In this document: one piece after another, positions 220-21,249 of the stretch
How the letters are laid out: every line of letters begins with the position of its first letter
Position numbering within the stretch: position 1 is the stretch's first letter
IMG/VR virus record: IMGVR_UViG_3300023109_000172
Span: 1-21,249 of that record
Origin: a virus
DNA length: 21,249 bases
Direction: 5' to 3' (one strand)
Notes under the pieces: model-generated
Database searches by the model: none
Told to the model about the DNA's origin: nothing
Seen by the model: only the letters and a program-made list of their open reading frames with translations
Position numbers and translations under genes: made by a program

Positions 220-284
220 ATTTTCTTATCATGGTTGGTTACAGGATTGCCTGCCCACTTCCCTTTTCGGGCCAATAATATACC

Positions 285-292
285 AATAAATA
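285..292 (-). promoter_or_regulatory. Candidate late-promoter element (variant) upstream of the left-edge appendage gene
   Basis: On the coding strand this reads TATTTATT inside CAACTATTTATTGG. It is a one-mismatch version of the TATTTATA element found before other transcription units here, and it has the AACTA prefix. It lies 65 nt before the ATG at 219, farther than most copies. Function is inferred from position and recurrence only. Confidence 0.35.
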
Positions 293-309
293 GTTGTGTT
301 AAGCTAAGT

Positions 310-528: not shown

Positions 529-537
529 ATTTTTATT

Positions 538-1428: not shown

Positions 1429-1447
1429 GTTAAGATACTATTATATG

Positions 1448-1455
1448 TATAAATA
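1448..1455 (-). promoter_or_regulatory. Candidate late-promoter element upstream of the 296-aa appendage gene
   Basis: The coding strand reads AACTAACATATTTATACAT, which contains an exact TATTTATA. It sits in the 34-nt gap after the stop of the 173-aa gene and 19 nt before the ATG at 1428. The same 16-base string AACTAACATATTTATA recurs before the gene at 10183. Confidence 0.5.
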
Positions 1456-1462
1456 TGTTAGT

Positions 1463-1984: not shown

Positions 1985-1985
1985 T

Positions 1986-3863: not shown

Positions 3864-3866
3864 TTG

Positions 3867-4619: not shown

Positions 4620-4620
4620 A

Positions 4621-5106: not shown

Positions 5107-5405
5107 TATTTTTCTTCTATTGATTTTTCTGCTACCATAACTGTGTATATATCTTTATACTTAGATGTAGCATTATTTTTAAATGATTCGTAGGCTTCTT
5201 GTGGTCCTTTCTGTGTAATTACCTTTACTTTAAATACTTCTACTCCAGGTTTTTCTTCTCTTACCAATGTTACTGTAGTTACTCCTGGTAAAGCTCTTAA
5301 TAGTTCACCAATTTGAGCACTACCCAATTCATCGTTAAACACAACCTTTGTCATTGCAACAAAAGTTTTGTACTCTATAGATTCTATTATTTTACTTAAC
5401 TTCAT
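5106..5405 (-). CDS. Small neck-cluster protein with ferredoxin-like beta-alpha-beta pattern (99 aa)
   Basis: An unknown 99-aa protein placed between gp13 and gp14 and joined to both by one-base TAATG overlaps. After a short N-terminal helix (MKLSKIIESIEYK) the predicted order is strand FVAMTKVVF, helix SAQIGELLRALPG, strands VTTVTLVRE and VFKVKVITQ, helix GPQEAYESFKNNATSKY, and strand IYTVMVAEKSI. That is the beta-alpha-beta-beta-alpha-beta order of a ferredoxin-like fold. No cysteine cluster or catalytic motif is present. T4 has no gene between 13 and 14, so this is an addition to the neck module. Tight coupling suggests a stoichiometric virion or assembly-factor role; this is inference. 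Confidence 0.8.
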   Translation of the reverse strand: MKLSKIIESIEYKTFVAMTKVVFNDELGSAQIGELLRALPGVTTVTLVREEKPGVEVFKVKVITQKGPQEAYESFKNNATSKYKDIYTVMVAEKSIEEK

Positions 5406-6550: not shown

Positions 6551-6563
6551 ACTTAAGTTTTAA

Positions 6564-6571
6564 TATAAATA
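6564..6571 (-). promoter_or_regulatory. Candidate late-promoter element upstream of gp13
   Basis: The coding strand reads ATCTATTTATATTAAAA, containing an exact TATTTATA. It lies immediately after the T-run of the gp23 terminator and 13 nt before the gp13 ATG. Its location directly after a terminator makes a promoter role likely, since gp13 would otherwise be cut off from upstream transcription. Confidence 0.55.
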
Positions 6572-6573
6572 GA

Positions 6574-6601
6574 TAAAAAAAGAGGTCCAAATAGGACCTC
6601 T
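6574..6601 (-). terminator. Rho-independent terminator after the major capsid gene
   Basis: On the coding strand a perfect 8-bp stem AGAGGTCC/GGACCTCT with loop TATTT is followed directly by TTTTTT. It begins 25 nt after the gp23 TAG stop. Stem, short loop and U-tract are those of an intrinsic terminator. It would keep abundant gp22/gp23 transcription from entering the neck genes. Confidence 0.9.
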
Positions 6602-6626
6602 CTTTCTTTCTATATAAATCTAACTA

Positions 6627-8216
6627 CTATATTAAGGTAGAGTCAGAAATAAAGATTTTACCATAAAATTCTGGACGAATCATTTTCTTAGCGTAACGAG
6701 TCATCAAACCTTTTCTAGGTGTAAAGGTTTCTGGATCGTATACTAATGGAGTCATCATTAATGGTACATATGGTGCATAAACTGCTCCAGTTTCTAAGAA
6801 TTGAGATCCTCTAAATCCTAACAACAAAATGTTCTCAGTCATATAAGGGTTCTTGTATACTTTGAATCTGTTAGCCAAAGATCCTACTCTTTGTACTCCC
6901 ATATTGAATTCAGCCTGATCTCCGTCTGTAGCAGCAGCATATCCAGGAATAGATTCCAAGATTGTAGCAACTGTAGGTGAAGTCACGATGAAATTAGCAC
7001 CACCTCTTAATGTCTTCTGGTGGATTTTGTTAGATACTTTTTGGATTTTAGTTCCTAAAGTTTGGAACCATTGTCCTTGTGTATTGTAGAAATCAGAAGT
7101 TGAAGTAGTCCAAGATGTACCATTCCATACTTTGTTGTTCTCAGCAGACCATCTTTCAGTAGTTCTAGCATCAGAGATCAACATATCTAAAATCTCAAGA
7201 TCAATTTCCATTGAAATATACTCGCTCAATAGTGAAGTCAATTCTGCTTCAGCATCGATTGAGTGGTAAGCGTTAAGATCTTGAGCAAATTCTGGTGTCC
7301 ATTGTGCCTTTAACTTACGTGTTTTGGCAACAATTGCTTCAGAAGCAAGTTTAACGTCAATTTCTGGAATAGAGATTGAAGTATCTACAGCAGCAGTTGA
7401 ATCAGCTTCAAAGTCTCCTCTGTCGTTGTCTACTGGTTGCTTGTGATAAGTGATTTGTACGTTAGCTCCGTTGTCTACCCCGCCAGTAACTGATTGTACT
7501 AATACTAGGTTAGCTCCAGAGATTTTCGTAAATTGAGGATGTAGTGTTGCAGATCCAGATGCAGCAGATAAACCAAATGCACGTATTCCTTGTGCATCAT
7601 ATCCTGAGATAGATGATAGGGCTACTGTTACAGTTTCGTATGAACCTGTAGCGATTGATTGATCATAATCAACGTCAGCAAGAGTTGCAGCAGCTACTGT
7701 TGCAGCAGTTGCAGTTCCTGTAGCTTGGTTGATTGAGTATCCAAATTTTCCTGCTCCATAAAGACCACCAGCAACGTCAGTATCAACTCCCATCTTTGCA
7801 GATGCAGAAGATACATTACCGTATAGGTTTTCTCCGTCATTACGTCCGTTTGTAGCGGTACCGTATTTGAAATCTAGATAAAATACTAGACCTGAAGGTA
7901 GATTCATTGGTTGTACAGATACAAAGTCTTGAGCAACGATTTGAGCGAATACTTTACGTACTAATGGTAAAGCTACTCCAGCCCACTGCTCACCTGCACC
8001 TGCTGTGAAGGATCCTCCTCCAGCGTTTGTGTTGTTTGCTTCAGCTACGATTTGTTTTGCTTGGTTCTCAAGGATCATTGCCATGTTGTTGGCATATCTT
8101 TCATCCTCAATCCCTTCTAACAAACCAGAAGCTTTCCACTTGTCAGCCAAACGACTAGCATCAGCTTGCATGCTTTTGTAGTTGTTTGAACTTTCTAATA
8201 GGTTGTTAATTTCCAT
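6627..8216 (-). CDS. gp23: Major capsid protein, T4 gp23-like
   Basis: A 529-aa protein, close to T4 gp23 (521 aa), expected to have the HK97 fold. The N-terminal ~59 residues form a helical, charged propeptide. VAE59|A60 fits the T4 gp21 cleavage rule (hydrophobic-x-Glu before Ala/Gly), and T4 gp23 loses 65 residues in the same way. The predicted mature protein starts ANNTNAGGGSFTAGAGEQW. It is followed by GVALPLVRKVFAQIVAQDF and QPMNLPSGLVFYLDFKYG, blocks characteristic of gp23. Residues ~140-270 are an Ala/Thr/Ser-rich beta insertion that would sit in the exposed E-loop/insertion region. The C-terminus contains YDPETFTPRKGLMTRYAKKM, another conserved gp23 block. It follows the scaffold gene by 17 nt without a promoter element, so the two are cotranscribed. 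No gp24-like vertex paralogue is present. Confidence 0.95.
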   Translation of the reverse strand: MEINNLLESSNNYKSMQADASRLADKWKASGLLEGIEDERYANNMAMILENQAKQIVAEANNTNAGGGSFTAGAGEQWAGVALPLVRKVFAQIVAQDFVSVQPMNLPSGLVFYLDFKYGTATNGRNDGENLYGNVSSASAKMGVDTDVAGGLYGAGKFGYSINQATGTATAATVAAATLADVDYDQSIATGSYETVTVALSSISGYDAQGIRAFGLSAASGSATLHPQFTKISGANLVLVQSVTGGVDNGANVQITYHKQPVDNDRGDFEADSTAAVDTSISIPEIDVKLASEAIVAKTRKLKAQWTPEFAQDLNAYHSIDAEAELTSLLSEYISMEIDLEILDMLISDARTTERWSAENNKVWNGTSWTTSTSDFYNTQGQWFQTLGTKIQKVSNKIHQKTLRGGANFIVTSPTVATILESIPGYAAATDGDQAEFNMGVQRVGSLANRFKVYKNPYMTENILLLGFRGSQFLETGAVYAPYVPLMMTPLVYDPETFTPRKGLMTRYAKKMIRPEFYGKIFISDSTLI

Positions 8217-8233
8217 GATTAATTTAAAATAAA

Positions 8234-9331
8234 TTATTTAATAATTCCAGCTAATTTTTGCATTCTTAGGACGGTATCTGATACTTCATTAATTACTTCT
8301 GGTTTAGCAGCAGTAGTTCCTGTAGCTTTAGACGCCATTCCTTTGATTTTCGATTCAGAAACATTTTCTTTTTTCGTTACAACGTTTTCAGAAACAGTTT
8401 CAAAAACCAATTTTACTTCTTTTACCGTTTCGGCTTTATCAAATGCAGCGATGATATTTACTTTCTGTGCTTCATTTAGATTATTAGCCTTGAAGATTTT
8501 GTTAACATAAAGAAGTTTAGAATTTAATAGATTAGTTTCGTGTAAGTCTTTCTTAAGTTGCTCGATAGTTTCGAGTGCTTGAGCAAGATCTTCTTCATTT
8601 ACTACTCTATTGATGTTAGTACCTTGTGCTTGAGAATCAGTAGTGTCTTGTACCTCAGTAGACTGAGCTGTAGATACTTCTTCAATCTCTTCTTCACCTT
8701 CGGCTACTGTAGCTTCTAGTTCAGCAAGTAATTCGTCTAAATCAATTTCTTCTTCTTGTACGTCAATTTCATCTTCAACAGGCTCTTCATCAGCTAATGG
8801 TTCTTCTAGTTCAGGTTCATCACCCATACCTTCGATGTCACCAGCATCCATGTCAGCACCCATATCGTCTGCACCGCCGCCCATTTCCTGAGCTATGATG
8901 TCTCTGATCATATCCTTAAACTGATCAACAGATAAGTCTCCTAGATCTTCGTCACCATCTACGGCTTCGTCGTCACCAGCTTCTTCGCCAGCGTCTTCGA
9001 TTTCTTCAGCTTCGTCCTCTGATTCTTCAGAGTCATCCTCAGCTTCTTCTTCTTCAGCTTCAGCAGTTACTGTTTCTAGTCCTGAAAGGTCTTCCTCAAT
9101 TGCTTCGTCTTTTTTGTCGTCTTTAGCTTCTTCAACTTCATCTTCATCGACTTCGTTTACTACTTCTTCTTCAACAGATGAATCTTCCATCTCTTGTAGT
9201 TTAGCAGCTAACATATCTTTCAGATGAGGTGTTAAAGACTCTTCTAAAGCTTCTTTAGCGTTAGCAATAGCGGCTTCTCTTACAGATTTAGCTTCAGCAA
9301 TAGCTTGCTTGAATAAATCCTTGTTTGCCAT
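8234..9331 (-). CDS. gp22: Prohead core scaffold protein, T4 gp22-like (by position and composition)
   Basis: A 365-aa protein directly before gp23, the position of T4 gp22 (269 aa). Residues ~1-50 are an Ala/Lys/Glu-rich helix. Residues ~50-220 are extremely acidic, with long Glu/Asp runs plus a Met/Gly/Asp-rich segment. A coiled-coil stretch follows (AQALETIEQLKKDLHETNLL, ~245-265), then a helical C-terminal third ending in VLRMQKLAGIIK. Several hydrophobic-x-Glu sites fit gp21 cleavage, for example LNE|A in NNLNEAQKV. Scaffold proteins of this type are digested to small acidic peptides inside the maturing head. Sequence identity to gp22 itself is not evident to me, so the name rests on position, acidity, helical content and cleavage sites. 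The start is ATG 9331, with an 89-nt leader from the promoter-like element. Confidence 0.75.
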   Translation of the reverse strand: MANKDLFKQAIAEAKSVREAAIANAKEALEESLTPHLKDMLAAKLQEMEDSSVEEEVVNEVDEDEVEEAKDDKKDEAIEEDLSGLETVTAEAEEEEAEDDSEESEDEAEEIEDAGEEAGDDEAVDGDEDLGDLSVDQFKDMIRDIIAQEMGGGADDMGADMDAGDIEGMGDEPELEEPLADEEPVEDEIDVQEEEIDLDELLAELEATVAEGEEEIEEVSTAQSTEVQDTTDSQAQGTNINRVVNEEDLAQALETIEQLKKDLHETNLLNSKLLYVNKIFKANNLNEAQKVNIIAAFDKAETVKEVKLVFETVSENVVTKKENVSESKIKGMASKATGTTAAKPEVINEVSDTVLRMQKLAGIIK

Positions 9332-9420
9332 TTAAAAAATTTTTTGGGATTTCTACGATTATTAGAATCGCAATAAAAGTTATAATGTGTTCAATACAGT
9401 AACTTGTCCGTATATTCGTA

Positions 9421-9428
9421 TATAAATA
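9421..9428 (-). promoter_or_regulatory. Candidate late-promoter element upstream of gp22-gp23
   Basis: The coding strand reads ATATATATTTATATACG, with an exact TATTTATA. It lies between a strong terminator (9463-9494) and the gp22 ATG, 89 nt before the start, which leaves an unusually long leader. That leader contains a weak hairpin (CGATT/AATCG, 9356-9370) and an A/T-only stretch next to the ATG. Confidence 0.5.
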
Positions 9429-9462
9429 TATATGGAAACAAAAAACACATCAAAATAGATAT

Positions 9463-9494
9463 AAAAAAACAAAAAACCCACCGAGTAGGTGGGC
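9463..9494 (-). terminator. Rho-independent terminator after the 218-aa gene
   Basis: The coding strand shows a perfect 6-bp G/C-rich stem CCCACC/GGTGGG with loop TACTC, followed by TTTTTTGTTTTTTT. It lies 32 nt after the stop of the gene at 9527-10183. It separates the upstream unit from the gp22-gp23 unit. Confidence 0.92.
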
Positions 9495-9526
9495 TTAAGT
9501 CAAATGAGTGTAGCGGTGTTAGATAC

Positions 9527-10183
9527 TTATGAATCTAAAATATCTTTAATTTCGTTTTTAAAAGCTGCTTCTTTAGTAAGCTTTGTTTCTTCTACCCCTT
9601 CTTCATATCCTCTACCTTTTTCTCTAGCTTGTTTTTTTACAGAAGAAAAATCAGTTTGGAAGTTTTTCCAAGCTTTACATAATTTGTTATCTGCATTAGC
9701 ATCACAATAATCCATTGCTGACATTCCGCCTTTTACTGCTGCAAACAATCCAGCTCCATAAGTTGCTAAAATACCTAAAAGTTCTGGTTGATCCATTACC
9801 AATTGAAGAATATCAGTACCTTCATTTACTTCAGTTTCATCAACTGTTTCTCCTTCAGCTGCAACATCAGCTTCGTTTTTCTTTTTACTATGTCCGTGGC
9901 TACTTTCAGTAAGTACATTTAAGTCTCCTACAGGAATATTTTTAACTGTTTTATTACCTTCTTTAAAGAAAACATCATAGTGAGTAACTACATGCTTACC
10001 TTCAGCATTTTCTACTAATGTATGTTCTCCGTCTAGGCAAATTCCGTATCCATAAGTTTCATGGACAACATGGGCTGCACAATCGTGATCGAAACCAGGT
10101 GCAGTTTCATCTATATTTTCTTCTTTTGCTTTCTTACCTTCGGCAATAAAGTTTCTTAAGTTAAAATTTGTATACTTACTCAT
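9527..10183 (-). CDS. Candidate internal head protein with T4-type capsid-targeting N-terminus and SH3/Tudor-like domain (218 aa)
   Basis: The protein begins MSKYTNFNLRNFIAE|G. The FIAE segment resembles the T4 capsid-targeting sequence of IPIII (MKTYQEFIAE|A, from memory), which gp21 removes. Residues ~37-92 then show HVVHETYGYGICLDGEH, THYDVFF and a closing VKNIPVGDLNVL. That spacing (V-x-H-x-x-G-x-G, then strand, then V-x-x-x-x-L) recalls the small Tudor/SH3-like barrel at the C-terminus of UvrD/PcrA helicases and in CarD proteins. Residues ~95-122 are a charged linker. Residues ~125-155 are hydrophobic and Gly/Ala-rich (LGILATYGAGLFAAVKGG), and a charged helical tail follows. It stands alone between a promoter element and a terminator, next to gp22. 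The role is inferred: a processed virion-internal protein. The SH3-like call is by eye only. Confidence 0.75.
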   Translation of the reverse strand: MSKYTNFNLRNFIAEGKKAKEENIDETAPGFDHDCAAHVVHETYGYGICLDGEHTLVENAEGKHVVTHYDVFFKEGNKTVKNIPVGDLNVLTESSHGHSKKKNEADVAAEGETVDETEVNEGTDILQLVMDQPELLGILATYGAGLFAAVKGGMSAMDYCDANADNKLCKAWKNFQTDFSSVKKQAREKGRGYEEGVEETKLTKEAAFKNEIKDILDS

Positions 10184-10207
10184 TTTTAAAATTCTTTTAT
10201 GTTTATA

Positions 10208-10215
10208 TATAAATA
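10208..10215 (-). promoter_or_regulatory. Candidate late-promoter element upstream of the 218-aa gene
   Basis: The coding strand reads AACTAACATATTTATATA, with an exact TATTTATA, in the 45-nt gap between the 205-aa gene and the ATG at 10183 (24 nt before it). The string AACTAACATATTTATA is identical to the copy near 1448. Confidence 0.5.
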
Positions 10216-10228
10216 TGTTAGTTTTTAA

Positions 10229-10846
10229 TTAAACACCTACTACTTTAGGTCCTATAGATTTAACTGCTGCTGCTAGTTCAACTCCTTTTATCCCACCGAG
10301 ACCGCCTTCTATAGCAGCAATAATAGGACTTCCTGAAGTGAGAGCACTATGGGCTGCTCCTATAGCATTAGTTCCTGCTATTGCAATGGCTATGTTAAGA
10401 ACTACTTCGGCAGTTAGTTTTAATTTTTTTACATCAACCTTACCAGATTGTTTGTCTTTCCATACGGCCTTAGCCAATCCAGTCAGCTTTACAAATCTCA
10501 TTACTATCTTAATATACTTCCTATGAAGAGAGTGTCCGTTATTTTCTATCCAGTTTGAAATTTTATTTTCTCCTTCTTCATCTTCCCCACCACCTTTAAA
10601 AAGTTTTCTAAATATTTTTACGACAAACTTTATCAATTGAGCTACATATTCCATTAACTTAGGTGCTGCTAGTATTGTTCCTACTATAATAGAAACAGCA
10701 GCTTCATTGACTAATGGTTTTTCTGATTCATGTACAGCATTGATATCTTCTTTAGTAATTCCTTCAAGTATAAGGTTAAGCTTTCTCTCTTCCTTAACTT
10801 CAGTTATTACTTCTCTAACAAGTTCTTGTAATTGAGATTTTTTCAT
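10229..10846 (-). CDS. Hydrophobic phage protein with candidate capsid-targeting leader (205 aa)
   Basis: An unknown protein overlapping the end of gp21 by one base (TAATG), so made with the protease. Its leader, MKKSQLQELVREVITEV, matches the leaders of the 77-aa and 294-aa proteins (L6, L9, V/I10, E12, E16 shared). Two gp21-type sites follow: ILE28|G29 and VNE48|A49. Beyond residue 49 is a hydrophobic segment (AVSIIVGTILAAP then VAQLIKFVVKIF, ~49-83), then a Gly/Glu linker, a basic helix region, and a second hydrophobic Ala/Gly/Ile-rich segment (~140-170 and again near the C-terminus). These could be membrane-interacting helices or buried core helices; sequence alone does not decide. The location between gp21 and gp22 and the leader suggest a prohead core or injected internal protein. 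Confidence 0.75.
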   Translation of the reverse strand: MKKSQLQELVREVITEVKEERKLNLILEGITKEDINAVHESEKPLVNEAAVSIIVGTILAAPKLMEYVAQLIKFVVKIFRKLFKGGGEDEEGENKISNWIENNGHSLHRKYIKIVMRFVKLTGLAKAVWKDKQSGKVDVKKLKLTAEVVLNIAIAIAGTNAIGAAHSALTSGSPIIAAIEGGLGGIKGVELAAAVKSIGPKVVGV

Positions 10847-11424
10847 TATGCTCTTAGTATATCGTTTATGATGGTATCTAAATTATGGTATTTAGAAACT
10901 TTTATTTTACCTTCCTGTAAAGCTACAGGGTTCATAAAAGCTCCGTGAGTTGATGGATTAGAAACAAAATCCCAGCATACTAGTTCAAAGTCTGGTTGTA
11001 CTTCTAAATTACCTTCGTTAGTCTGTTGAACTGATCCGGTACCTCTAGAACTAATACCGATAGTATGTCCTGCTTTAATAATTTCTTTTACGATATTACC
11101 TGCAGGAGTATTTAATAGTTCTACTTTACCCATAAGGTCGTCTCCCTTCCAGTATAGCTCTTTTACTATATGAGATGCATTTTTTAAAGATACTACAGGA
11201 GATTCAGGATGATCTAATTCTCCAAAGGCGTTACCGTTCTTAACGAATTCATCTGTATATTTTTTAGCTTCTCTTTCTAGAATAGCTTTAGAGTAAACAC
11301 GGCCATTTTGATTTTGTGCTTTAGCTCTTTGCATAACACCTTCTACTTCAAAGACTCCAGGTTTTGTTTTGGACTCCCTAATAGTTGGTCTGAATGGTGT
11401 TATATCTACTAATAATTGTGGCAT
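10846..11424 (-). CDS. gp21: Prohead maturation protease, T4 gp21-like
   Basis: A 192-aa serine protease of the herpesvirus-assemblin/T4 gp21 type (T4 gp21 is 212 aa). GRVYSKAILEREAKKY (residues 41-56) and GNAFGELDHPES (64-75) are the family's signature blocks. H72 is the likely catalytic histidine. GISSRGTGS (123-131) carries the likely nucleophile, S125 or S126, and DFELVCWDFVSNPSTHGAF (145-163) is the conserved C-terminal core block. In T4 it is activated inside the prohead, cleaves scaffold, internal proteins and gp23 after hydrophobic-x-Glu, and then digests itself. The start ATG is 3 nt after the 506-aa gene, and its stop overlaps the next start. It is the presumed processor of the leaders described for the neighbouring genes. 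Confidence 0.93.
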   Translation of the reverse strand: MPQLLVDITPFRPTIRESKTKPGVFEVEGVMQRAKAQNQNGRVYSKAILEREAKKYTDEFVKNGNAFGELDHPESPVVSLKNASHIVKELYWKGDDLMGKVELLNTPAGNIVKEIIKAGHTIGISSRGTGSVQQTNEGNLEVQPDFELVCWDFVSNPSTHGAFMNPVALQEGKIKVSKYHNLDTIINDILRA

Positions 11425-11427
11425 AGT

Positions 11428-12948
11428 TTAAAAATTTGGAGTAAAGATAGTTGATTTAGGTTCCTCTACAACTTCTGTTTCACCTAAAGGTTTTTGGCCA
11501 GAATTGTGAGCGTCAACATCTGCTTGTGTTATTGTTCTAACTTTTGGTAAACTTACCTTACTTAGGAAAGCTCCTTTCTTTATAACTCTACCTAAATCTT
11601 GTTGAAATGCTGCTTCTAAGCTAGGAGCAATAAATCCACCAATCTTTAGACCTTCACCGTTTTCAAACGTACTAGTCTTATCAAAAGTTTTAGCTATCTT
11701 ATCAGACATTTTATCGTAAAAAGATTCTATCTCTGTTACAATATTTTCTAATTCGTTTACTACTGATTTTACTCCGGCAAAGCTTTCGTATCCTTCAGCC
11801 CAATCTGCTAACTTTACTGTAGCAGCTTCGTTTAGTAAGCTCTTTTTAATAATAGACTTTATAGCTTCTTTTAACTGCTTTTCTTTTTCTGCTTGTTTTT
11901 CTTTAGCTTTATCGTAAGTAGATTTTTTACCCGCTAATCTATCTTGAGTATGAGCTTTTTGCATTCTTTTCATTGCATAGCTCTCATCCTTACCCATAGC
12001 TTTTTTAATAGCTTTATCTTTAGCATGCATATAATCATCTCCATCGATGTCTCCATCTCCGTCATGATCAGTTCCTTTCTTTTCACCCATATCAGAAGGA
12101 CCTTCATAGTTTACAGAGATATACTCTCTAAACTCGTCTTCGATATCTGCTCCATCTAGAAGATCTTCTCCATGTGTTCTAATGAAATCTTTTAACACAC
12201 CTGCTGTAATATCTGGATAATTAGTTCTTAATGCTCCTACTACTTTTCCTAATAATGCTTTTTTAGCATCTTCAGACATTGGTGGGTTAGGGTCAACTAC
12301 TTCCTCGTCTTGATGTGGATAATCATGATCGTAAGAATCTAAGTCATTCTTAGCATCTTCTTCTTCATCTTCTCTCATAGGAGAACCAGCATGCTTATTT
12401 GCTAACTCTTCTGGTGATAACTCTTCATCATCTCCATCTTGATTACCTTCAATTTCTTCTCTTAAGGTAGCTTTTTTAAGTCCGTTAAAAGTATCTACTG
12501 TAGTTGCTCCTCTTTTTACTTCTACTTCCTTATCGTGTTTGTCTACTTTATTAGATTCACCTGACATAAGGTCTAAATAGTGAGTGGCATTTTTTTCTAA
12601 GTTATCTTTTGCTTTACTTTCAGCTTGCTTGTAGTCTTCTGGTTTAATGGTCTGTCTAGCAATATCAATACCCATTGACTGTAATTCAATCCTAATACCT
12701 CTTTCTAATGCATCAAGTGAGTAGGTAAGTGCAGGTCTATCGTCGTATACTTTTACTCCAGAGAAAGCAGGTTTTGGTGCTTCAAACAACATACCTCTGT
12801 TTTTAAGAATTTGAACTGTGCTGTCAAACCCGTCGTATTGAGAGACGTACATTGGGTACGATTGTTTCATTTGTCGTACAAATTCTCTCTTAGCCATATT
12901 ACCTTCGTTTACGGCTCTGTATTTTTCTGTTACTGTTCTTGCGTTCAT
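11428..12948 (-). CDS. Prohead-region protein with EF-hand-like calcium-binding loop (506 aa)
   Basis: An unknown, highly charged, mostly helical protein just before gp21. I chose ATG 12948, which gives a TAATATG junction with the upstream gene; a longer TTG start at 12963 would overlap that gene. Features in order: AVNE15|G16, a possible gp21 site; residues ~20-115, mixed globular; ~150-230, acidic linker; ~230-285, helices; residues 294-305, DHDGDGDIDGDD, a complete EF-hand loop pattern (D1, D3, D5, G6, I8, D12); then a Lys/Ala-rich coiled-coil; LLNE|A, a second cleavage-type site near base 11825; and a C-terminal ~130-residue domain. The position matches T4 gp67/gp68 prohead core genes, but no similarity to them was recognised. 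A calcium-binding core or internal protein is the best inference. Confidence 0.8.
   Translation of the reverse strand: MNARTVTEKYRAVNEGNMAKREFVRQMKQSYPMYVSQYDGFDSTVQILKNRGMLFEAPKPAFSGVKVYDDRPALTYSLDALERGIRIELQSMGIDIARQTIKPEDYKQAESKAKDNLEKNATHYLDLMSGESNKVDKHDKEVEVKRGATTVDTFNGLKKATLREEIEGNQDGDDEELSPEELANKHAGSPMREDEEEDAKNDLDSYDHDYPHQDEEVVDPNPPMSEDAKKALLGKVVGALRTNYPDITAGVLKDFIRTHGEDLLDGADIEDEFREYISVNYEGPSDMGEKKGTDHDGDGDIDGDDYMHAKDKAIKKAMGKDESYAMKRMQKAHTQDRLAGKKSTYDKAKEKQAEKEKQLKEAIKSIIKKSLLNEAATVKLADWAEGYESFAGVKSVVNELENIVTEIESFYDKMSDKIAKTFDKTSTFENGEGLKIGGFIAPSLEAAFQQDLGRVIKKGAFLSKVSLPKVRTITQADVDAHNSGQKPLGETEVVEEPKSTIFTPNF
12034..12069 (-). other. EF-hand-type loop inside the 506-aa protein
   Basis: The twelve codons encode DHDGDGDIDGDD. 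Liganding positions 1, 3, 5, 9 and 12 are all Asp, position 6 is Gly and position 8 is Ile, as in canonical EF-hand and dockerin loops. The flanking exiting helix is plausible (YMHAKDKAIKKAMG). Only one loop was found. Confidence 0.75.
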
Positions 12949-12949
12949 A

Positions 12950-13183
12950 TTATAAGTAATCAAATCCTTTAGTATGTGATGGTCGTTTTGGACGACTAAC
13001 TTTTTTGAAACCTAATTTAGTTAGTGTTTTTTTAGCTCTATTACCTTTACCAAAAGCATGCGGTGTTGCATATTGTGCTCCTGAACCTGGTGTGAATGAA
13101 GCTCCGCCTACATTGGTGGTATTTGCCTCATCTAATTCCTGCATTACTTCTTTCACTAATTGAACTAACTCTAGTTTTGTCAT
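12950..13183 (-). CDS. Small capsid-targeted protein whose predicted mature N-terminus copies that of gp23 (77 aa)
   Basis: The leader MTKLELVQLVKEVMQELDE19|A20 matches the leaders of the 205-aa and 294-aa proteins and ends in a gp21-type site (LDE|A). After the site the protein reads ANTTNVGGASFTPGSGAQYA. The predicted mature gp23 reads ANNTNAGGGSFTAGAGEQWA: 13 of these 20 residues are identical, 14 of 21 with the preceding Glu. The remainder (about residues 40-77) is strongly basic (KGNRAKKTLTKLGFKKV then SRPKRPSHTKGFDYL). It overlaps the 285-aa gene in an ATGA junction and is followed by the 506-aa gene after 1 nt. I infer a small basic internal or capsid-lattice-associated protein; the basic tail could bind packaged DNA. 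Such short genes are easily missed or called hypothetical. Confidence 0.8.
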   Translation of the reverse strand: MTKLELVQLVKEVMQELDEANTTNVGGASFTPGSGAQYATPHAFGKGNRAKKTLTKLGFKKVSRPKRPSHTKGFDYL

Positions 13184-14037
13184 GTAATAGACTTTAGTTC
13201 ATTTACTAAATCATAGTACTGCATTAAATTGACTAGATGGTTATCGTTAATTTTTTCCTTATTAGTTAAAGGATTAATATTTTTAGCAACCTCTTCTAGT
13301 TTTATCTTTACTACTTCATCTTTTACTTTTACTGAAAGTTTTCTGATTGCTGAAGCAACTTTGTTAAGTTCTTCATTTACTAATGAACGTAAACGAGATT
13401 GTGAATTTACTGATGTAATAAATTCCTTTAAAATAGTTTTCTGTTCTGGTAAAAGATTTTTGTATTTTGAATTAAATTTCTCCAATAGTATCTTAAACGT
13501 CAAAAGTTTTAAATCCTTATCGTATTTAGAATATTCTTCAATTAACGTGTCCTTAACGTCCTCTCTGTTTTGTGATTCAGAAGTAAGGTGTTCTAATAGT
13601 GTAGTTTTATTATCTATTAATACCTGAGGGTCTACTAAGTTGGTGTTGTTTTGTGCTTCGAGTAAACAAAATAGTGCAGCCAAAGGTTTGTAGTCTCTAA
13701 CCTGCATACCGAAAAATTCATTCACATCATAACTTTCTTTTATTTCAGATATGAGTTCATATTTTTCAGCTCTTAATTTTTTTTGGTTAAACTTTCTTGA
13801 TACTTCAGTAATAGTTGAAAGTATTGCCTCTGCTTTATTTTGAGAAGTACTTTTATTCTTTACTATAAATTCGTATAGTTTATACTCTTTTGATAGTAAA
13901 GTATTTTTAGCGTAGTATTTTTTAAGTATCGATACCGATTTAGAATCTGAATTGTTTAGAGTATCAACAGCTATCTGCTTAACTAACAGTTCAAAAATTA
14001 AACCAGTATTACGAAATTTGGAGTGTTTTATCTTCAT
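13180..14037 (-). CDS. Unknown helical protein between portal and prohead core genes (285 aa)
   Basis: The protein starts MKIKHSKFRNTGLIFELLVK. It appears almost wholly alpha-helical, rich in Lys, Glu, Leu and Ser, with no signal peptide, membrane segment or catalytic motif. Helical segments include the region around NEFFGMQVRDYKPLAALFCL (~105-124) and a Lys/Val-rich one near residues 225-250. No hydrophobic-x-Glu|Ala/Gly site appears near the N-terminus, unlike its neighbours. It is the first gene of a unit that ends with gp21 and the 205-aa gene. It has a TATTTATA element 16 nt before its ATG and overlaps the next gene by 4 bases (ATGA). Its place just after gp20 matches T4 gp67/gp68, suggesting an assembly or core role, but no homology was recognised. 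Confidence 0.75.
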   Translation of the reverse strand: MKIKHSKFRNTGLIFELLVKQIAVDTLNNSDSKSVSILKKYYAKNTLLSKEYKLYEFIVKNKSTSQNKAEAILSTITEVSRKFNQKKLRAEKYELISEIKESYDVNEFFGMQVRDYKPLAALFCLLEAQNNTNLVDPQVLIDNKTTLLEHLTSESQNREDVKDTLIEEYSKYDKDLKLLTFKILLEKFNSKYKNLLPEQKTILKEFITSVNSQSRLRSLVNEELNKVASAIRKLSVKVKDEVVKIKLEEVAKNINPLTNKEKINDNHLVNLMQYYDLVNELKSIT

Positions 14038-14053
14038 TATACACGTTTACTAT

Positions 14054-14061
14054 TATAAATA
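14054..14061 (-). promoter_or_regulatory. Candidate late-promoter element upstream of the 285-aa to 205-aa unit
   Basis: The coding strand reads AACTAACACATATTTATAAT, with an exact TATTTATA, in the 28-nt gap after the gp20 stop and 16 nt before the ATG at 14037. The AACTA prefix overlaps the gp20 stop codon. Confidence 0.5.
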
Positions 14062-14065
14062 TGTG

Positions 14066-15964
14066 TTAGTTACCTAAATCTTTTATGTTGTCTTCTTTCA
14101 ACATATCAGGGGTCTTGTCTGATGATTCTTCAAATACAATACTCTTTAACATATCTCTATTTTGCAAGTAAACTTTGTTGGTAGTAACGTTTTCCATTAC
14201 ATTCTCATTATCTGATGGATACCCACCTTTCATACCATGTTGACCTAAAGGATCTATACCTCCAAGTGGGTTATCTTGTGTGCCATATACTGACATTTTT
14301 TCTAATGGTCTTCCTCCTTCTGGTCCTGGTTCTCCATGTTTAGGAGTAGTTTCAGAATACCCAGCAGGTAGTTCATCCTGTGATCCTCCTTTCGGTGTGT
14401 TGGTAGCTCTTCTACCGTACATTGAAGCTAGATCGTGAGGTGTACCGTATGTCTGACCTGATTTAGCAGGATCATTACCTTCATTTTCAATCTGTGCTAA
14501 TCTAAACAGTCGCTTAGAATCTTCTCTTACTAAGTCTCTTTGTTCTATATATTGATCCTCAGATAAATCAAACAGTTGTTCGTAAATAAAATCAGTTGAG
14601 AACAACTTAGTATCTTTCATCTGATTAGCTAGATCTACTTTTTCTTTAAGTAGAGCAACTTTTTCTTGTTCAAATATTATAGAAGGTGTTGTTAACTTAA
14701 GATCAAAGTTAGTTAAACTTTCTCCTGTAAAACCTTGGGTGTATAAGTGAACTAATGCTATTTTAGTAAGTTCTGATTCTAGTATCTTTTGTATTCTTTC
14801 AACTGTACGTGCAAATCTAATATCTTCTGCTGCTAAAGTAGCTTTACCTGAAAGATCTCCTTCATATCCGAAGTAAGCTTTTGGTATCTTGAGAGCAGCA
14901 AACATTTTTTCTTGAAGATATCTTACGTCTGTTACACCGTCATATTCTAATCCTTTAGTAGTTTCTATTCTAGTAGATGAATCTCCTCCTCTTACAGGAA
15001 GGTAGAAATCCTCCATCATATTTTGTATGTTGAATTTCAAGTTATATTGACCATCTTCTCCTACATAAGGAGTTTTTTTCATTTGATTGATAGTCTTTTG
15101 CATAAACTGCTCAACCTCATTAGGTGGAATAGAACCAACATTAATATAGAACATTCTCTTCTCAGGTGCTCTCATTATACGATGTATTAACATCGCATCC
15201 TCCATTAGAGTAACCTGTTTGTATATTTTTCTAGCTGGTTCCAAATAAGATCTACCGTATGGCAGGTAAGATGTATCTGAAATGAGCCTAAAGTGTGCTA
15301 TTTCGTAATTATCAAACTCAATTACCTTTTTAGAATCTTTTTTCTTATAACTGTAACTAGGAGCTGTTTGAGCAGCTAATCCATCAGGATCTAATTTAAA
15401 TGATACTTTAGCTGGATTTTCAGGGTCTGTACCTTCTTCTCTAATGAAGTTATATACTGTATAAGGTAGTACGTTGTATACACCAAACTTTTCTGCTATC
15501 TCTAACTTTAAGAAAAAGTCTCCGTACTTACACATATTACGTGTCCAAGACCAAAGGTTAAATTCAATATTTAGTACGTCGTAAAATAAGTTGTAAAGTA
15601 CTTTTTGGATATTTTCATCAGATGATTTTATCGAAAGTATTTCACCCATGTCGTTTTTGACAGTAGCTTCATCAGCAATAATATCTAATGCAGAAGCTAA
15701 AATTGGATCTGAGTCCATTGCTTCATAATCGGTATAGAGTTGAATTCGAAGTGTTTGGTAATTTAAATTAGGGTTAAACACATTCTTATGGTTGTACAAG
15801 TAGAGTCTTGTAAACCTATCCATTAGAGAATTGGTTTCGTATTTTCCGGTAGTCTGTATAGTGTTAACATCAGCTACCTTGAGCTGGTCTCCACCGACAT
15901 TACGTATCACTACGTCAGACGAAAATAATTTTTGGAGTCTACCAAATAGAGATTTATCGGCCAT
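14066..15964 (-). CDS. gp20: Portal vertex protein, T4 gp20-like
   Basis: A 632-aa protein, longer than T4 gp20 (524 aa). Recognisable portal blocks are LRIQLYTDYEAMDSDPILAS with ALDIIADEATVKN just after (residues ~50-85), NFIREEGTDPEN, YEIAHFRLIS, YGRSYLEPARKIYKQV, and MRAPEKRMFYINVGSIPPNE (~275-295). The block GYEGDLSGKATLAAEDIRFA then lies near the clip/stem part, with TVERIQKILESELTKIA next. Portal proteins form the dodecameric ring at one capsid vertex through which gp17 pumps DNA, and they nucleate prohead assembly on the core. The final ~120 residues are a Gly/Pro/Asn-rich extension with no T4 counterpart I recognise. The gene follows gp17 by 23 nt, in a gap holding a promoter-like element, with no gp18 or gp19 between. 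Gap and start (ATG 15964) are clear. Confidence 0.93.
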   Translation of the reverse strand: MADKSLFGRLQKLFSSDVVIRNVGGDQLKVADVNTIQTTGKYETNSLMDRFTRLYLYNHKNVFNPNLNYQTLRIQLYTDYEAMDSDPILASALDIIADEATVKNDMGEILSIKSSDENIQKVLYNLFYDVLNIEFNLWSWTRNMCKYGDFFLKLEIAEKFGVYNVLPYTVYNFIREEGTDPENPAKVSFKLDPDGLAAQTAPSYSYKKKDSKKVIEFDNYEIAHFRLISDTSYLPYGRSYLEPARKIYKQVTLMEDAMLIHRIMRAPEKRMFYINVGSIPPNEVEQFMQKTINQMKKTPYVGEDGQYNLKFNIQNMMEDFYLPVRGGDSSTRIETTKGLEYDGVTDVRYLQEKMFAALKIPKAYFGYEGDLSGKATLAAEDIRFARTVERIQKILESELTKIALVHLYTQGFTGESLTNFDLKLTTPSIIFEQEKVALLKEKVDLANQMKDTKLFSTDFIYEQLFDLSEDQYIEQRDLVREDSKRLFRLAQIENEGNDPAKSGQTYGTPHDLASMYGRRATNTPKGGSQDELPAGYSETTPKHGEPGPEGGRPLEKMSVYGTQDNPLGGIDPLGQHGMKGGYPSDNENVMENVTTNKVYLQNRDMLKSIVFEESSDKTPDMLKEDNIKDLGN

Positions 15965-15976
15965 TATGAGTTTTTA

Positions 15977-15984
15977 AATAAATA
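15977..15984 (-). promoter_or_regulatory. Candidate late-promoter element (variant) upstream of gp20
   Basis: The coding strand reads AACTATTTATTTAAAAAC, containing TATTTATT, one base off the exact element and with the AACTA prefix. It occupies the 23-nt gap between gp17 and gp20, 12 nt before the ATG at 15964. Confidence 0.4.
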
Positions 15985-15987
15985 GTT

Positions 15988-17562
15988 TTAGTTAAGTAAC
16001 CAAGAAATATCTTCTTCGCCACCATTTGTCTTTATAATATAAGGATTTTCTCTTTGGTTACCAACAGAACTTATAATAGCTTTGTTTTGTGCATTGAGAT
16101 TATTAAAAGACGATAGTTGAGCTCTTGCCAGGTCCATACCTTGTTGTCTAAGCTTGAGAGCAGTATCTCTAACGTACAACGCAGTTGCACAGGACATAAT
16201 AAGGTCATCATTATATCTATCTTGAGCTTGAGCTTTTCCGTTTTTCCAAACAAACACTCTCATTTCCCCCATCAGTCTTTTAGATTGAATAGTTACTGAT
16301 TTCTCTCTTATATATTCTATCATCTTAGCAATTACAAGAGGTCTAGTTCTAGCTGACATTGTAAAGCCAGGTACTAATTTATCCCTTTCAAACTTATGCA
16401 TATAAGATTCAACAGTTTCTTGATTACTAGTAGAACTATAATATATGTTTCTATATTCTCTTTCTAATAACTGTTCAATTGTAGCCCAACCTATATTTGC
16501 ATTTTCAACTACCAGAAGTGCTTCGTTATATTCTGTAGCTAATCCTACTAGAAAGTTGCCATAGTCTTTAGGAGATATTTTACCTTTATATTCGGCAACT
16601 TGAGTACATGTTTCTATATCAAAAACGTGGCAAGCAGAATAGTCTTGTGAATCGCCTCTTGCAACATCAGCAACTACCATGTACGATTTCATGTAATCCA
16701 CTCCTTCCCATACCCATAGATTGCTATCTACTCCTCTTCTTTCAAGAGGATCTTTTTGATATGTTTGTTCTATAAACGACATATCGTCTGGTTCAAATAC
16801 TGTTTGACCGGATGCTAAGAAATCACAATCACACTCCTGTCCTGCCATTCGAGGACCTAAGTCAGAGTCTTGTTGGTTTCTCCATGATTGGTCTCTTTCA
16901 GGGTGCACAGTCCATGGTAAACGTATTGGTAGGAAACTATTTTCTCCACTTTCTGCTTTTTCCCATGTTTGGTGAAACCAGTTACCAATACCGTTTGGAG
17001 TTGATAACGCCATACATTGACCACCTGTAGCTAACGTTTGCTGTGCTGCTGTAAATGTCTCATCAACATTATCTATAAATGCTGCTTCATCCATTAAGAG
17101 TAACGATACTGCTTCTGATCTTGCAGCATCAGGTGATGATGATTTAGCTTGTACTTTAGAACCATTCTTTAATCTGAGGGATAGTTTATTTTTTTCAACA
17201 GAAGGCAGCTTTAACCATTTTGGTAACTCATCATACATAAAGATAACTTTAGTTACTAAGTTACGAGCTGTTGCTTGAGTTGTAGCCAGAGCTAATACGT
17301 TTTTATCTTTATGAAATAACATCAACCATAAACTGTATGCTGCAGCTAAAGTAGATATACCAAGCTGTCTTGACTTAAGAGTTATAAGATATTGTTGATC
17401 TCTAAATAAATGAAGTACTTTTTCCTGAAATGGATAGAGGTTAAATAAGATTCTACCTCGAGTTGGGTGTTGAATATGGCAATACTTTTTCATAAAGTAC
17501 GCCGGATCTTTTCCACACTTGATATACTCTTGTGCGATTATTTTTTTTATGTCTTGTGCCAT
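15988..17562 (-). CDS. gp17: Large terminase subunit (DNA-packaging ATPase/nuclease), T4 gp17-like
   Basis: A 524-aa two-domain packaging motor; T4 gp17 is 610 aa, and this one lacks roughly the first 90 residues. ATPase domain: the adenine-binding-type segment FNLYPFQEKVL (40-50), Walker A-like SRQLGIST (64-71), Walker B LLLMDEAAF (154-162, with D158 and E159), and coupling motif STPNG (187-191). RNase H-like nuclease domain: D299 in VVADVARGDSQDYS, E353 in LLVVENANIGW, and D452/D453 in DRYNDDLIMS, matching T4 D401, E458 and D542. It cuts concatemeric DNA and drives it through the gp20 portal. The Walker A Lys found in T4 (SRQLGKT) is absent here; such variants occur in other terminases. It starts 2 nt after the 398-aa gene. 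No small terminase (gp16) was recognised next to it. Confidence 0.95.
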   Translation of the reverse strand: MAQDIKKIIAQEYIKCGKDPAYFMKKYCHIQHPTRGRILFNLYPFQEKVLHLFRDQQYLITLKSRQLGISTLAAAYSLWLMLFHKDKNVLALATTQATARNLVTKVIFMYDELPKWLKLPSVEKNKLSLRLKNGSKVQAKSSSPDAARSEAVSLLLMDEAAFIDNVDETFTAAQQTLATGGQCMALSTPNGIGNWFHQTWEKAESGENSFLPIRLPWTVHPERDQSWRNQQDSDLGPRMAGQECDCDFLASGQTVFEPDDMSFIEQTYQKDPLERRGVDSNLWVWEGVDYMKSYMVVADVARGDSQDYSACHVFDIETCTQVAEYKGKISPKDYGNFLVGLATEYNEALLVVENANIGWATIEQLLEREYRNIYYSSTSNQETVESYMHKFERDKLVPGFTMSARTRPLVIAKMIEYIREKSVTIQSKRLMGEMRVFVWKNGKAQAQDRYNDDLIMSCATALYVRDTALKLRQQGMDLARAQLSSFNNLNAQNKAIISSVGNQRENPYIIKTNGGEEDISWLLN

Positions 17563-17564
17563 AA

Positions 17565-18761
17565 CTAAATAGGTTTGTAGTCTCCCATTAAATTAGTAGG
17601 AGCTACTCTCTTACTCTTGCTACGAATATTTAACGTCATTCTATAAACTGCAGTAGTAAAAACTATATCAACTCTTTTTGCTGTTCCTCCTGCACCACCG
17701 TAACGTATAGTAACGCCAGAAGTCGGTCTAGATGCTTTTTTAACATATTCTTCAGTAACTAGAAATAAATCTGTTCCTCCTGATTCAGTACCTTTTAACA
17801 TGTAATAACCGTGGCCAATGCCTGAGTGTAGTAAGTTATAAAGTTTTTCAGGATCTGCATTTGATATTTCGTGGTATTCACTAAAGTTTGTTCCTGTTCC
17901 ATCCTCCTTGTACTCGTTAAACACTCTACAAAATAACTCGTTATCTATTCCTAATGTTTCTAATAATGCAATACCGCTTTCAGTTTTAATTTTACCTGAT
18001 TTTATTTCTTCTTCAGTAAATATTTTTTTAACTCCAGGGTTAAAAAACGTTAATGTATTGCCGAATTTTAAGGAAATATATATTGGTTTATTATTTACTA
18101 TTAAAGTAATATCAGTTAAAGTTTCAGCTATAGACTGTGCTTGTTTGTCGCTTTTTATAGGTGTTCCTAATACTGGTCCTTCTGGTGTAAATATAAGCGG
18201 TCTTTTTTGGTTTCTTTTTCCTTCTTCTTTGATTTTGAAATTAGTAGGAGTTAATTTAAATTCCTTTATCATTTTTTCAATCAATGATTGGTAAGTAAAG
18301 TCTTTTCCGCCTTCTATAAACTTTTGCAGATCGTTAGCTACAACAGTCTCAAACTTATTACCTTTGTTACCACCACTAGCTAAAACTATTCCTATTTCTT
18401 TGTCTTCATATGTAAATTGAAAAAAGAAAAACGAACCACTTGGATTAGGTGCTATTTTTGGAGGTGTAGTTTTAACCTGTATCGAACTGTCAGTCACAGC
18501 TTTAAGGTCATCAATAAACTCATTATTGTCTATACCTTCTTTATTAGCAACTCTAAAAGCAGCAGACATTGTACTGTATTTATCAGGAAATTTAGAAACA
18601 AGCCGTTTAATAATTTCAGCTTCATTTTCTCCTTTTCTTTCTTGTATCTTAAAACCAAAGATAGATTCAAAAACTTTAAGATCGTTTTCGTTATTAAGGT
18701 CAGGATATCCTTTTTCGGACATCCAAGCCCATTCTAATATTGTTCTATCTATAAGACTCAT
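17565..18761 (-). CDS. Unknown protein with possible PD-(D/E)XK-like nuclease core (398 aa)
   Basis: It lies 2 nt upstream of gp17 and 1 nt after the 294-aa gene (TAATATG), so it is expressed with the terminase. The N-terminal ~35 residues contain ILEWAWMSEKGYPDLNNEND, a helical module. A second region from ~108 to 250 shows GNKGNKFETVVANDLQKFI (131-149, E138), then TLTDITLIVNN (215-224, D217) and PIYISLKFGN (226-235, S230 and K232). The arrangement helix-Glu, strand-Asp, hydrophobic strand-S-x-K is what PD-(D/E)XK nucleases show, though the Glu/Asp of (D/E)XK is replaced by Ser. The C-terminal part ends in VYRMTLNIRSKSKRV. T4 places gp16 here, but there is no similarity. It could be a DNA-processing enzyme or an inactive structural derivative; the nuclease reading is tentative. 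Confidence 0.75.
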   Translation of the reverse strand: MSLIDRTILEWAWMSEKGYPDLNNENDLKVFESIFGFKIQERKGENEAEIIKRLVSKFPDKYSTMSAAFRVANKEGIDNNEFIDDLKAVTDSSIQVKTTPPKIAPNPSGSFFFFQFTYEDKEIGIVLASGGNKGNKFETVVANDLQKFIEGGKDFTYQSLIEKMIKEFKLTPTNFKIKEEGKRNQKRPLIFTPEGPVLGTPIKSDKQAQSIAETLTDITLIVNNKPIYISLKFGNTLTFFNPGVKKIFTEEEIKSGKIKTESGIALLETLGIDNELFCRVFNEYKEDGTGTNFSEYHEISNADPEKLYNLLHSGIGHGYYMLKGTESGGTDLFLVTEEYVKKASRPTSGVTIRYGGAGGTAKRVDIVFTTAVYRMTLNIRSKSKRVAPTNLMGDYKPI

Positions 18762-18762
18762 A

Positions 18763-19647
18763 TTATCCTTCTTCTCCTGATTCGAAGTCTATAGGCTCGT
18801 CAGATAGATCTTCTCCTCCTTCATCGCCTCCTATATCTGCTCCTGCGTCGTCTCCTCCGAAATCTTCTCCTCCTTCAGCTCCTCCAATATCAGATCCAGG
18901 AAATTCTCCTCCACCTCCGCCGTCGGCAGATCCAAAGTCACCATCAGCTCCTTCACCTTCTTCTTCACCAGCACCCTTCATTGGTGCTTCTTTATAAAGT
19001 ATAGCTAACTTATCTAATGCTTGTTGGTAGTCATCGATCTTGTTAATGAAATACCTTTTACCAAGTATGTTAGCTTCAAAAGTTTTACCTGTCCACTTTA
19101 AAATATAGTCTTGACCGTTCTTTAGATTTACTCTAAATGAACTAGGTCTAGGTGAAATCCAATCAATTGTGTCAACAAACTCTTTAAAATCTTCAGTTTG
19201 TAGTTTTACAATTACTTGTTTTAAAGTAGGAAATTTAGCTAGTATCGTATCTGTAGCATCTTCCAAGACCGTTTCTGGAGCAGCTTCTGTATCTGGTTCT
19301 TCCTCTGGTGTTGGTTCTTCTTCGTCTTCAGACAGTTGATCTAGTAGTGATTCGTTTAAATCTTGTGGAATGTTAGTATCCAGTATCTCTACCTGTTCAC
19401 CTTCTAAGTCATCCATCAAACCTGGATTGTATTCATCTACACTAAAGTAAAGTATTACACCATCTGGGTCGTCTTGAATTTCATATTTGATTCCATATAT
19501 GTCTTCTAGTACTACTTGTGCAGCATTTTGACTTCTAGCATCCTTAGGTATCTTTATATAGAAATACCTATCTGGTGCTTCGTTAAGTTCAGTTAGTACT
19601 TCAGCGTATGCTTCTAGTATGAGATTATTTAGATCTTTTCTCTTCAT
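18763..19647 (-). CDS. Acidic phage protein with candidate capsid-targeting leader and Gly/Asp/Glu-rich tail (294 aa)
   Basis: I chose ATG 19647; the frame is open further upstream to a TTG at 19749, but that would overlap the previous gene by 125 bases. The chosen start gives [17 protein letters not shown], aligning residue for residue with the leaders of the 205-aa and 77-aa proteins. It ends in LNE23|A24, a strong gp21-type site. Residues ~25-75 form a small alpha/beta unit ([12 protein letters not shown] then [14 protein letters not shown]). Residues ~95-130 are an acidic linker and ~130-215 a second alpha/beta unit ([35 protein letters not shown]). The last ~70 residues are almost only Gly, Asp, Glu, Ala and Ser. 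It is cotranscribed with gp17. I infer a processed head protein; the polyacidic tail could mimic nucleic acid or bind a basic partner. Confidence 0.75.
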
Positions 19648-20950: not shown

Positions 20951-20955
20951 AATAG

Positions 20956-21249
20956 TTATTTTTTCTTTCCACCTTTCATGTTGGCACACCAATGATACAT
21001 TTTACCTTTCTCACCGCCATACTTTTTAGCCTTAGCTCGTAGGTCGGTTACTGAGCCTTTACATGATGCTCCAGATTTTTTTACTCTACCGGGTTTTGAT
21101 TTACCTTTTACTTTACCGTCATCGTAGTTTTCATAAACATCAGTTGGTTGAAAAATATCAGCTATACTTTTAAGTATTTTTACATGTTCTGCTTCAAGTA
21201 GAGGATATGTGTCTCCAAGAATACCTCTATCTGTAGTGGATAAATACGG
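20956..21249 (-). CDS. C-terminal part of a small basic Cys/Trp-containing phage protein (cut by right window edge)
   Basis: The frame is open from the right edge to a TAA at 20956-20958, giving 97 residues. The visible part begins [20 protein letters not shown]. It then has a Lys/Gly-rich linker ([15 protein letters not shown]) and ends with a compact basic module: [19 protein letters not shown] followed by [18 protein letters not shown]. The module has one Cys at each end (C-K-G-S-V and H-W-C) around a Lys-rich helix. I recognise this CKGSV...WCANMK pattern as a small conserved module in phage and other viral proteins, possibly the one catalogued as a DUF. I cannot state a function. Two Cys plus His could support metal binding or a disulphide. 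The N-terminus is unknown. Confidence 0.75.

Follow-up and report, generated by a model that had tools for sequence, protein, structure and literature searches.

The window analysed here is a viral contig of 21,249 bases from IMG/VR (Table 1), whose 20 proteins are all encoded on the minus strand. The genes lie in the order 431-aa, 294-aa, 398-aa, gp17, gp20, 285-aa, 77-aa, 506-aa, gp21, 205-aa, 218-aa, gp22 and gp23, followed by more structural genes; those without a T4 name are designated by the length of their product in amino acids (aa). Together they form the head-gene cluster of a T4-like phage, whose closest named relative is Flavobacterium phage immuto (host Flavobacterium sp. LMO8; about 74% identity across gp17-gp20). 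The subject of this report is a group of short N-terminal leaders on proteins encoded around gp21, an S77 prohead protease and the predicted processing enzyme for these leaders. The leaders resemble the capsid-targeting sequence (CTS) of T4 internal proteins (IPs), and in related genomes the same leader forms recur near gp21 on unrelated proteins. Homolog site counts were made over 155 IMG/VR loci plus immuto.

The heptad of T4 IPIII is YQEFIAE, and the 218-aa leader, with LRNFIAE, has the same pattern. A search pattern, [YFLIMW]xx[FLY][LIVMF]xE, was built on the IPIII positions. In T4, propeptides of 10-19 residues direct the IPs to the core, and in the ten-residue leader of IPIII positions 4 and 7 matter for targeting and positions 8 and 10 for processing; gp21 cleaves after L/I-x-E and is loose at P1', the residue after the cut (PMC9026906). 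The heptad was found in 4 of the 20 window proteins, all of them listed in the original prediction: the 218-aa (LRNFIAE15), 205-aa (LQELVRE12), 77-aa (LVQLVKE12) and 294-aa (LNNLILE12) proteins. It was absent from the first 30 residues of the 506-aa protein, which for this reason was not classed among T4-type CTS-tagged internal proteins.

Table 1. Features of the window, with predicted cleavage sites (arrows) and their conservation in homologs.
Feature	Position	Strand	Details
Source record	IMGVR_UViG_3300023109_000172, 1-21,249		viral contig, 21,249 bases, IMG/VR
gp23 propeptide	8040..8216	minus	VAE59↓A; second site LLE34↓G; VxE 43/43; P1' A 39, Q 4
gp22 scaffold N-terminus	9293..9331	minus	MANKDLFKQAIAE13↓A; IAE↓A in 51/51 homologs
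218-aa protein	9530..10183	minus	leader; small beta-barrel, residues 31-98; hydrophobic variable segment, residues 122-200; conserved C-terminal tail, residues 204-218
218-aa leader, N type	10139..10183	minus	MSKYTNFNLRNFIAE15↓G; heptad LRNFIAE; E15 in 22/22 homologs
205-aa mature body	10232..10702	minus	hydrophobic, pI 9.9; two segments of ~19 aa, mean hydropathy 1.5-1.6
205-aa propeptide, K type	10703..10846	minus	MKKSQLQELVRE12 ... VNE48↓A; heptad LQELVRE; E48 invariant in alignment A2
gp21 residues 172-192	10849-10911	minus	C-terminal of the conserved L(Q/N/S)E171↓G site
gp21, S77 prohead protease, 192 aa	10849..11424	minus	Pfam PF03420, E 4.7e-34; PHROG 207, head maturation protease
506-aa protein	11431..12948	minus	286-817 aa in relatives; gene universal, flanked by gp21 and the 77-aa gene
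506-aa predicted N-terminus	12904..12948	minus	MNARTVTEKYRAVNE15↓G; E15 52/56, G16 55/56; no heptad
Mature 77-aa protein	12953..13126	minus	N-terminus ANTTNVGGASFTPGSGAQY; resembles the mature gp23 N-arm, side by side across loci
77-aa leader	13127..13183	minus	MTKLELVQLVKEVMQELDE19↓A; heptad LVQLVKE; E19 in 65/69 homologs
294-aa protein	18766..19647	minus	leader-tagged, acidic; 227-822 aa in relatives
294-aa leader	19579..19647	minus	LILE12↓A and LNE23↓A; E12↓A13 17/17, E23 17/17; heptad LNNLILE

It had been claimed that five proteins of the window and gp23 begin with peptides ending in hydrophobic-x-Glu before Ala or Gly, and these peptides were found at the claimed residues (218-aa FIAE15↓G; 205-aa ILE28↓G and VNE48↓A; 506-aa AVNE15↓G; 77-aa LDE19↓A; 294-aa LNE23↓A; gp23 VAE59↓A). 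The starts of the 506-aa (ATG at 12948) and 294-aa (ATG at 19647) genes are both backed by homologs. Sites beyond that list were found in the 294-aa protein (LILE12↓A), gp22 (IAE13↓A) and gp21 (L(Q/N/S)E171↓G). As evidence the motif by itself proved little above chance: in nine related genomes [LIVMF]xE[AG] was present in the first 60 residues of 65 of 278 genes near gp21 (23%) and 245 of 1661 genes elsewhere (15%), and no window protein held significantly more sites than its own shuffles. The raw motif was accordingly rejected as a predictor, and the case must rest on comparison.

The restriction of P1' to Ala or Gly was too strict and was also abandoned, because P1' is A, F, L, V, S or G in the superfamily of the 205-aa protein and some gp23 relatives carry VAE↓Q. 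In the homologs the P1 Glu is near-invariant and P1' is variable, which is also the case for T4 gp21, and the [LVIA]xE sites of the 205-aa superfamily, with their free P1', match the T4 rule (PMC9026906). At the C-terminus of gp21 itself the L(Q/N/S)E↓G site is kept in about 117 homologs, which agrees with the C-terminal processing described for T4 gp21 (PMC9026906). The 205-, 77-, 294- and 506-aa proteins gave no family match above noise in Pfam, PHROG or PADLOC; a Pfam TA_inhibitor assignment for the 205-aa protein scored under the cut-off and was discarded.

The slot between gp21 and gp22, occupied in the window by the 205- and 218-aa genes, holds 0-3 genes across 47 distinct arrangements. 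Three recurrent leader forms were recognized, N (NFDLRKFLxE), K (MKKSQLxxLVREVIxE) and L (MKLSxLILE), and 53 of 61 slot proteins begin with one of them, over several unrelated body clusters. The 205-aa superfamily occupies the slot in many relatives. Its 27 slot proteins (141-205 aa) are very different in sequence, and [LVIA]xE stands directly before the hydrophobic body in 27/27; the leader changes type between members, yet the Glu at the E48 position stays. An AlphaFold model of the 205-aa protein was helical, with a pLDDT of 43, and was set aside. The 218-aa leader is retained among relatives while the bodies change: the hydrophobic segment is swappable, the tail is conserved, and the barrel is missing in some relatives (alignment A1). 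The hydrophobic 205-aa and the small-barrel 218-aa proteins, both encoded in this variable slot, are on present comparisons the strongest candidates for internal proteins packaged in the head.

The barrel of the 218-aa protein was modelled by AlphaFold with a pLDDT of about 80-88, and the top three Foldseek matches were CdnL, Mfd and the PcrA/UvrD Tudor (E 0.12-0.25, weak; VIA Z about 5), all tied to RNA polymerase or repair. The predicted fold of residues 31-98 thus resembles the small barrels of CarD/CdnL, the Mfd RID and the UvrD/PcrA Tudor, but by sequence these residues matched nothing in Pfam or PDB. The fold is common and the scores are low, so that no function follows and the similarity is a lead only. 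The small barrel is also mobile: it occurs by itself, as a fusion with 506-aa-like proteins, and at the C-terminus of 431-aa-like ones (A1; L056, L076, L123, L159).

Across related genomes the leader forms were found in 27 of 176 genes within 16 kb of gp21 and in 10 of 871 genes elsewhere, where shuffles expect 0.15 and 0.6 (p 2e-14). With the patterns fixed beforehand, four further genomes gave 19/134 near gp21 versus 9/779 elsewhere (p 1e-10). A search for the leaders across T4-like genomes had been proposed as a check; in the nine related genomes compared, leader-like N-termini were concentrated near gp21, and so they were in the four genomes added later. Exact-pattern searches of IMG/VR yielded 72 stretches with the N leader and 27 with the K leader; proteins long enough for comparison numbered 74 in 31 body clusters for the N type and 29 in 17 for the K type. 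One form of the N leader, MxNFDLKKFLVENK, stands ahead of about 31 unrelated bodies in IMG/VR, and two or three N-tagged genes may stand in tandem. The S77 protease was present on 13/13 tested N-leader contigs. In relatives, the genes tagged with a leader include one for a zeta-toxin-like kinase and one for a GNAT/nucleotidyltransferase. A zeta-toxin-like P-loop kinase (PF06414) with the N-terminus MIRISDLILE↓A is encoded at L165:16055-16996 (plus strand), about 17-20 kb upstream of gp21, and has homologs in three more contigs. Literature searches turned up no description of such leaders for this phage group.

Between gp20 and gp21 the window has the 285-, 77- and 506-aa genes, and 4/4 relatives laid out gene by gene keep this order; in the T4-type control RB68 the position is held by gp67 and gp68. 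All three are best read as core or assembly proteins. Because they are universal and occupy that position, the 77- and 506-aa proteins were read as probable prohead core or shell-assembly components. No Pfam or PHROG match that would relate them to gp67 or gp68 was found for either of these short, fast-evolving proteins. The E15 site of the 506-aa protein sits inside a block conserved on both flanks; four LxE[AG] sites were counted versus 1.6 expected (p 0.08), and the original prediction also lists LLNE↓A in this protein. Just past their predicted cuts the mature N-termini of the 77-aa protein (13070-13126) and gp23 (7977-8039), both minus strand, have AN.TN.GG.SFT.G.G.Q in common. In the four relatives with VAE↓Q in gp23 the 77-aa site becomes EE(L/M)↓STT or DEI↓STT, immuto being an intermediate or exception.

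The 294-aa protein, whose leader is nearly invariant and whose body drifts among 17 homologs, is likely an internal head protein, judging from its sequence. Its counterpart in immuto is a fusion: immuto_192 (L005:14006-16531), of 841 aa, corresponds to the 431-aa plus 294-aa proteins of the window and begins MKKLIRIVE↓AG. After the predicted cuts the mature 205-aa (pI 9.9) and 77-aa (pI 10.9) proteins would be basic, and the 218-aa (4.9), 294-aa (4.1) and 506-aa (5.0) proteins acidic. Predicted cuts in the leaders of immuto_194, _195, _199, _200 and gp22/gp23 were placed at N14/G26 (MADNFNLRSFLTE↓NKLTKNAQLLKE↓G), N13/N25 (MENFDLKKFLVE↓NKLTTNSKILKE↓N), V13/M17 (MKKSQIVKAVQE↓VLEE↓M) and G14 (MRTLQEKYNAIQE↓G). 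Two immuto annotations differ from these assignments: immuto_204 (L005:25626-26867) is annotated as DNA polymerase phi-like, yet is the gp22 orthologue, and immuto_194 (L005:17631-18632) is annotated as PduO, yet is an N-leader protein without a Pfam match.

Elsewhere in the window, the downstream structural genes at 1-6550 (neck and tail-type) are without the heptad, and among them the raw motif occurs in the first 60 residues only of a 173-aa protein. At the other end, 20954-21249 on the minus strand, open at the contig edge, encodes a C-terminal module of 50 residues, which in relatives (L166, L181, others) forms the C-terminal end of leader-tagged proteins with unrelated enzymatic bodies.

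Virion protein lists of cyanophages were compared with the heptad. In S-CREM2 (PMC10665884) the form [YFLW]xxF[LIMFV]xE was present in 7/51 virion proteins versus 1/158 other proteins (p 2.4e-4), a result taken as support and not as proof because the N-termini had been viewed before the pattern was fixed. The tagged virion proteins included Cas9, the SAM hydrolase, the APH-like kinase and the cytidylyltransferase, which are all four packaged enzymes that the authors list under regulation or DNA metabolism. Loose, strict and short naive motifs gave no enrichment in S-CREM2; only the heptad at the T4 positions did. The cyanophage virion enzyme leaders MKNFSSFLTE and VKRFDAFLTE (PMC10665884) fit the T4 heptad, and NMNAT begins MKSFLQFLKE (PMC9602691); these belong to another phage family and to other bodies, and were detected by the authors in purified virions. 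The genes for Cas9, the SAM hydrolase and the APH-like kinase of S-CREM2 lie at L332 (OR473000) 3837-12846. Cyanophages also carry the small barrel seen in the 218-aa protein, next to T4-GC190, a cytidylyltransferase, which in P-SSM7 begins MKKFSAFLTEA; virions of S-SM1 were found to contain T4-GC190 (PMC3037559).

The reading that we hold to be probable is a T4-type route of core docking and gp21 release, with two classes of users, core and internal cargo. The amphipathic N-terminal leader would dock the protein on the gp22 core as the prohead assembles, as the T4 CTS does, and gp21 would cut after hydrophobic-x-Glu, freeing the mature protein inside the head. One class would comprise universal components of core and shell assembly (gp22, 506-aa and 77-aa, in place of T4 gp22/gp67/gp68), and the other internal cargo retained in the head (the hydrophobic 205-aa, the barrel-bearing 218-aa and probably the 294-aa protein). 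Some of the cargo would probably be ejected with the DNA; the membrane may then be where the 205-aa protein acts, and the 218-aa protein may have a host target to which it binds. The leaders, their conserved sites, their sharing and their clustering at gp21 are properties of the compared sequences, from which we infer docking, cleavage, packaging, ejection and function; an effector step for the window proteins is suggested by analogy. As to the proposed set of processed internal proteins surrounding gp21, the leaders are indeed CTS-like in position, in heptad, in the conserved Glu and in being shared by unrelated bodies. What fell away was the uniformity of the set: two members, the 77-aa and the 506-aa protein, have the look of core or shell-assembly components, and the latter is without the heptad. 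A wider proposal, put forward tentatively and at somewhat less than even strength, is that distant T4-like phages infecting Bacteroidota and related hosts may carry a mobile CTS cassette of several subtypes, grafted on dozens of unrelated small proteins both in a gp21-gp22 slot dedicated to them and elsewhere, which would give a large, fast-changing head-loaded set entering the host with the DNA, including membrane-active and possibly transcription-directed members.

All leader-tagged proteins, the 205-, 218- and 294-aa proteins too, might instead be prohead core or assembly factors that gp21 cuts and whose inert fragments either leave or stay, with none ejected as an effector. This is a serious if rather doubtful alternative: both the 77-aa and the 506-aa gene are universal and placed like gp67/gp68, the 205-aa superfamily and the 294-aa family occur in most relatives, and T4 core proteins are gp21 substrates as well (PMC9026906). 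Cargo is nevertheless a better fit than a fixed scaffold for a slot that contains none to three genes with unrelated bodies and for one N leader on at least 31 bodies, and the heptad-tagged virion proteins of cyanophages include enzymes. It is unlikely that the leader is an unprocessed docking helix for head or tail assembly in which Glu is conserved for helix contacts. The equal conservation of both flanks of the 506-aa site, the variable P1' of K and L leaders, and leader-like N-termini in some neck-region genes would suit such a helix, whereas hydrophobic-x-Glu falls at linker/body boundaries with P1' free in the 205-aa superfamily, the gp23 and 77-aa sites covary and have common downstream sequence, and gp22, gp23 and gp21 of the same genomes retain typical gp21 sites. 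Chance matches in Glu-rich proteins, suggested by the frequency of the raw motif in unrelated genes and by the shuffles, are hardly credible and were ruled out by the conservation of a near-invariant Glu in homologs, the sharing of leaders across unrelated bodies and the clustering at gp21.

Several points weigh against the route of T4-type docking and release. The leader patterns were partly designed after slot proteins had been viewed, the four replication genomes were selected for carrying the N leader, and the S-CREM2 heptad was settled after inspection of its N-termini. The S77 protease was found on 2/7 K-leader contigs, the other five (44-74 kb) being fragments without it, and the L pattern also matches p99-type neck-region proteins, perhaps uncleaved. 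The mature 218- and 294-aa proteins are acidic, unlike the T4 IPs, which when mature are typically small and basic, although this trait does not strictly define them. In S-SCSM1 the motif matched one virion NMNAT and one non-virion protein encoded within the structural cluster, between two virion genes (p 0.31 alone, in an underpowered test). No proteomics for this phage group was found in the literature.

Very few environmental phages are among those whose DNA-accompanying proteins have been identified. The tag likely allows sequence-based prediction of proteins that are probably packaged and perhaps injected. Should the heptad prove predictive of head loading beyond the T-evens, sequence alone would suffice to list the packaged proteins of the abundant T4-like phages of aquatic bacteria, for which immuto is a cultured relative; such a rule, if true, would also explain Cas9 and NMNAT in cyanophage virions.

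Among known systems, T4 IPI, IPII, IPIII and Alt are alike in having a short N-terminal leader that ends in hydrophobic-x-Glu and is common to unrelated proteins, with an S77 protease in the genome. The T4 IPs have only the leader in common, and IPI, Ip2 and Ip3 inhibit GmrSD restriction enzymes, protecting the incoming DNA (PMC12373910). The present proteins, of a different phage lineage, show a pattern of the same kind but differ in their several leader subtypes, in the many more bodies, in the acidity of the 218- and 294-aa proteins, and in having bodies for which the searched libraries gave no link to T4 IPs; packaging in the window is predicted. In T4-type RB68 gp21 and gp22 are adjacent, whereas here the slot lies between them. 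T4 gp67, gp68 and gp22 find their likeness in the position of the 77- and 506-aa genes between gp20 and gp21, in a gp22 orthologue with IAE↓A and perhaps in the several LxE sites of the 506-aa protein; they differ in that the 77- and 506-aa proteins have no family match and the mature 77-aa N-terminus is like the gp23 N-arm. The ejection proteins of phiKZ and SPN3US are carried in the head and processed by an S77-type protease at a Glu-ending motif, with common N-termini on diverged paralogs, but their propeptides are mostly >100 residues, the motif is another one, and the phages are giant (PMC5694885).

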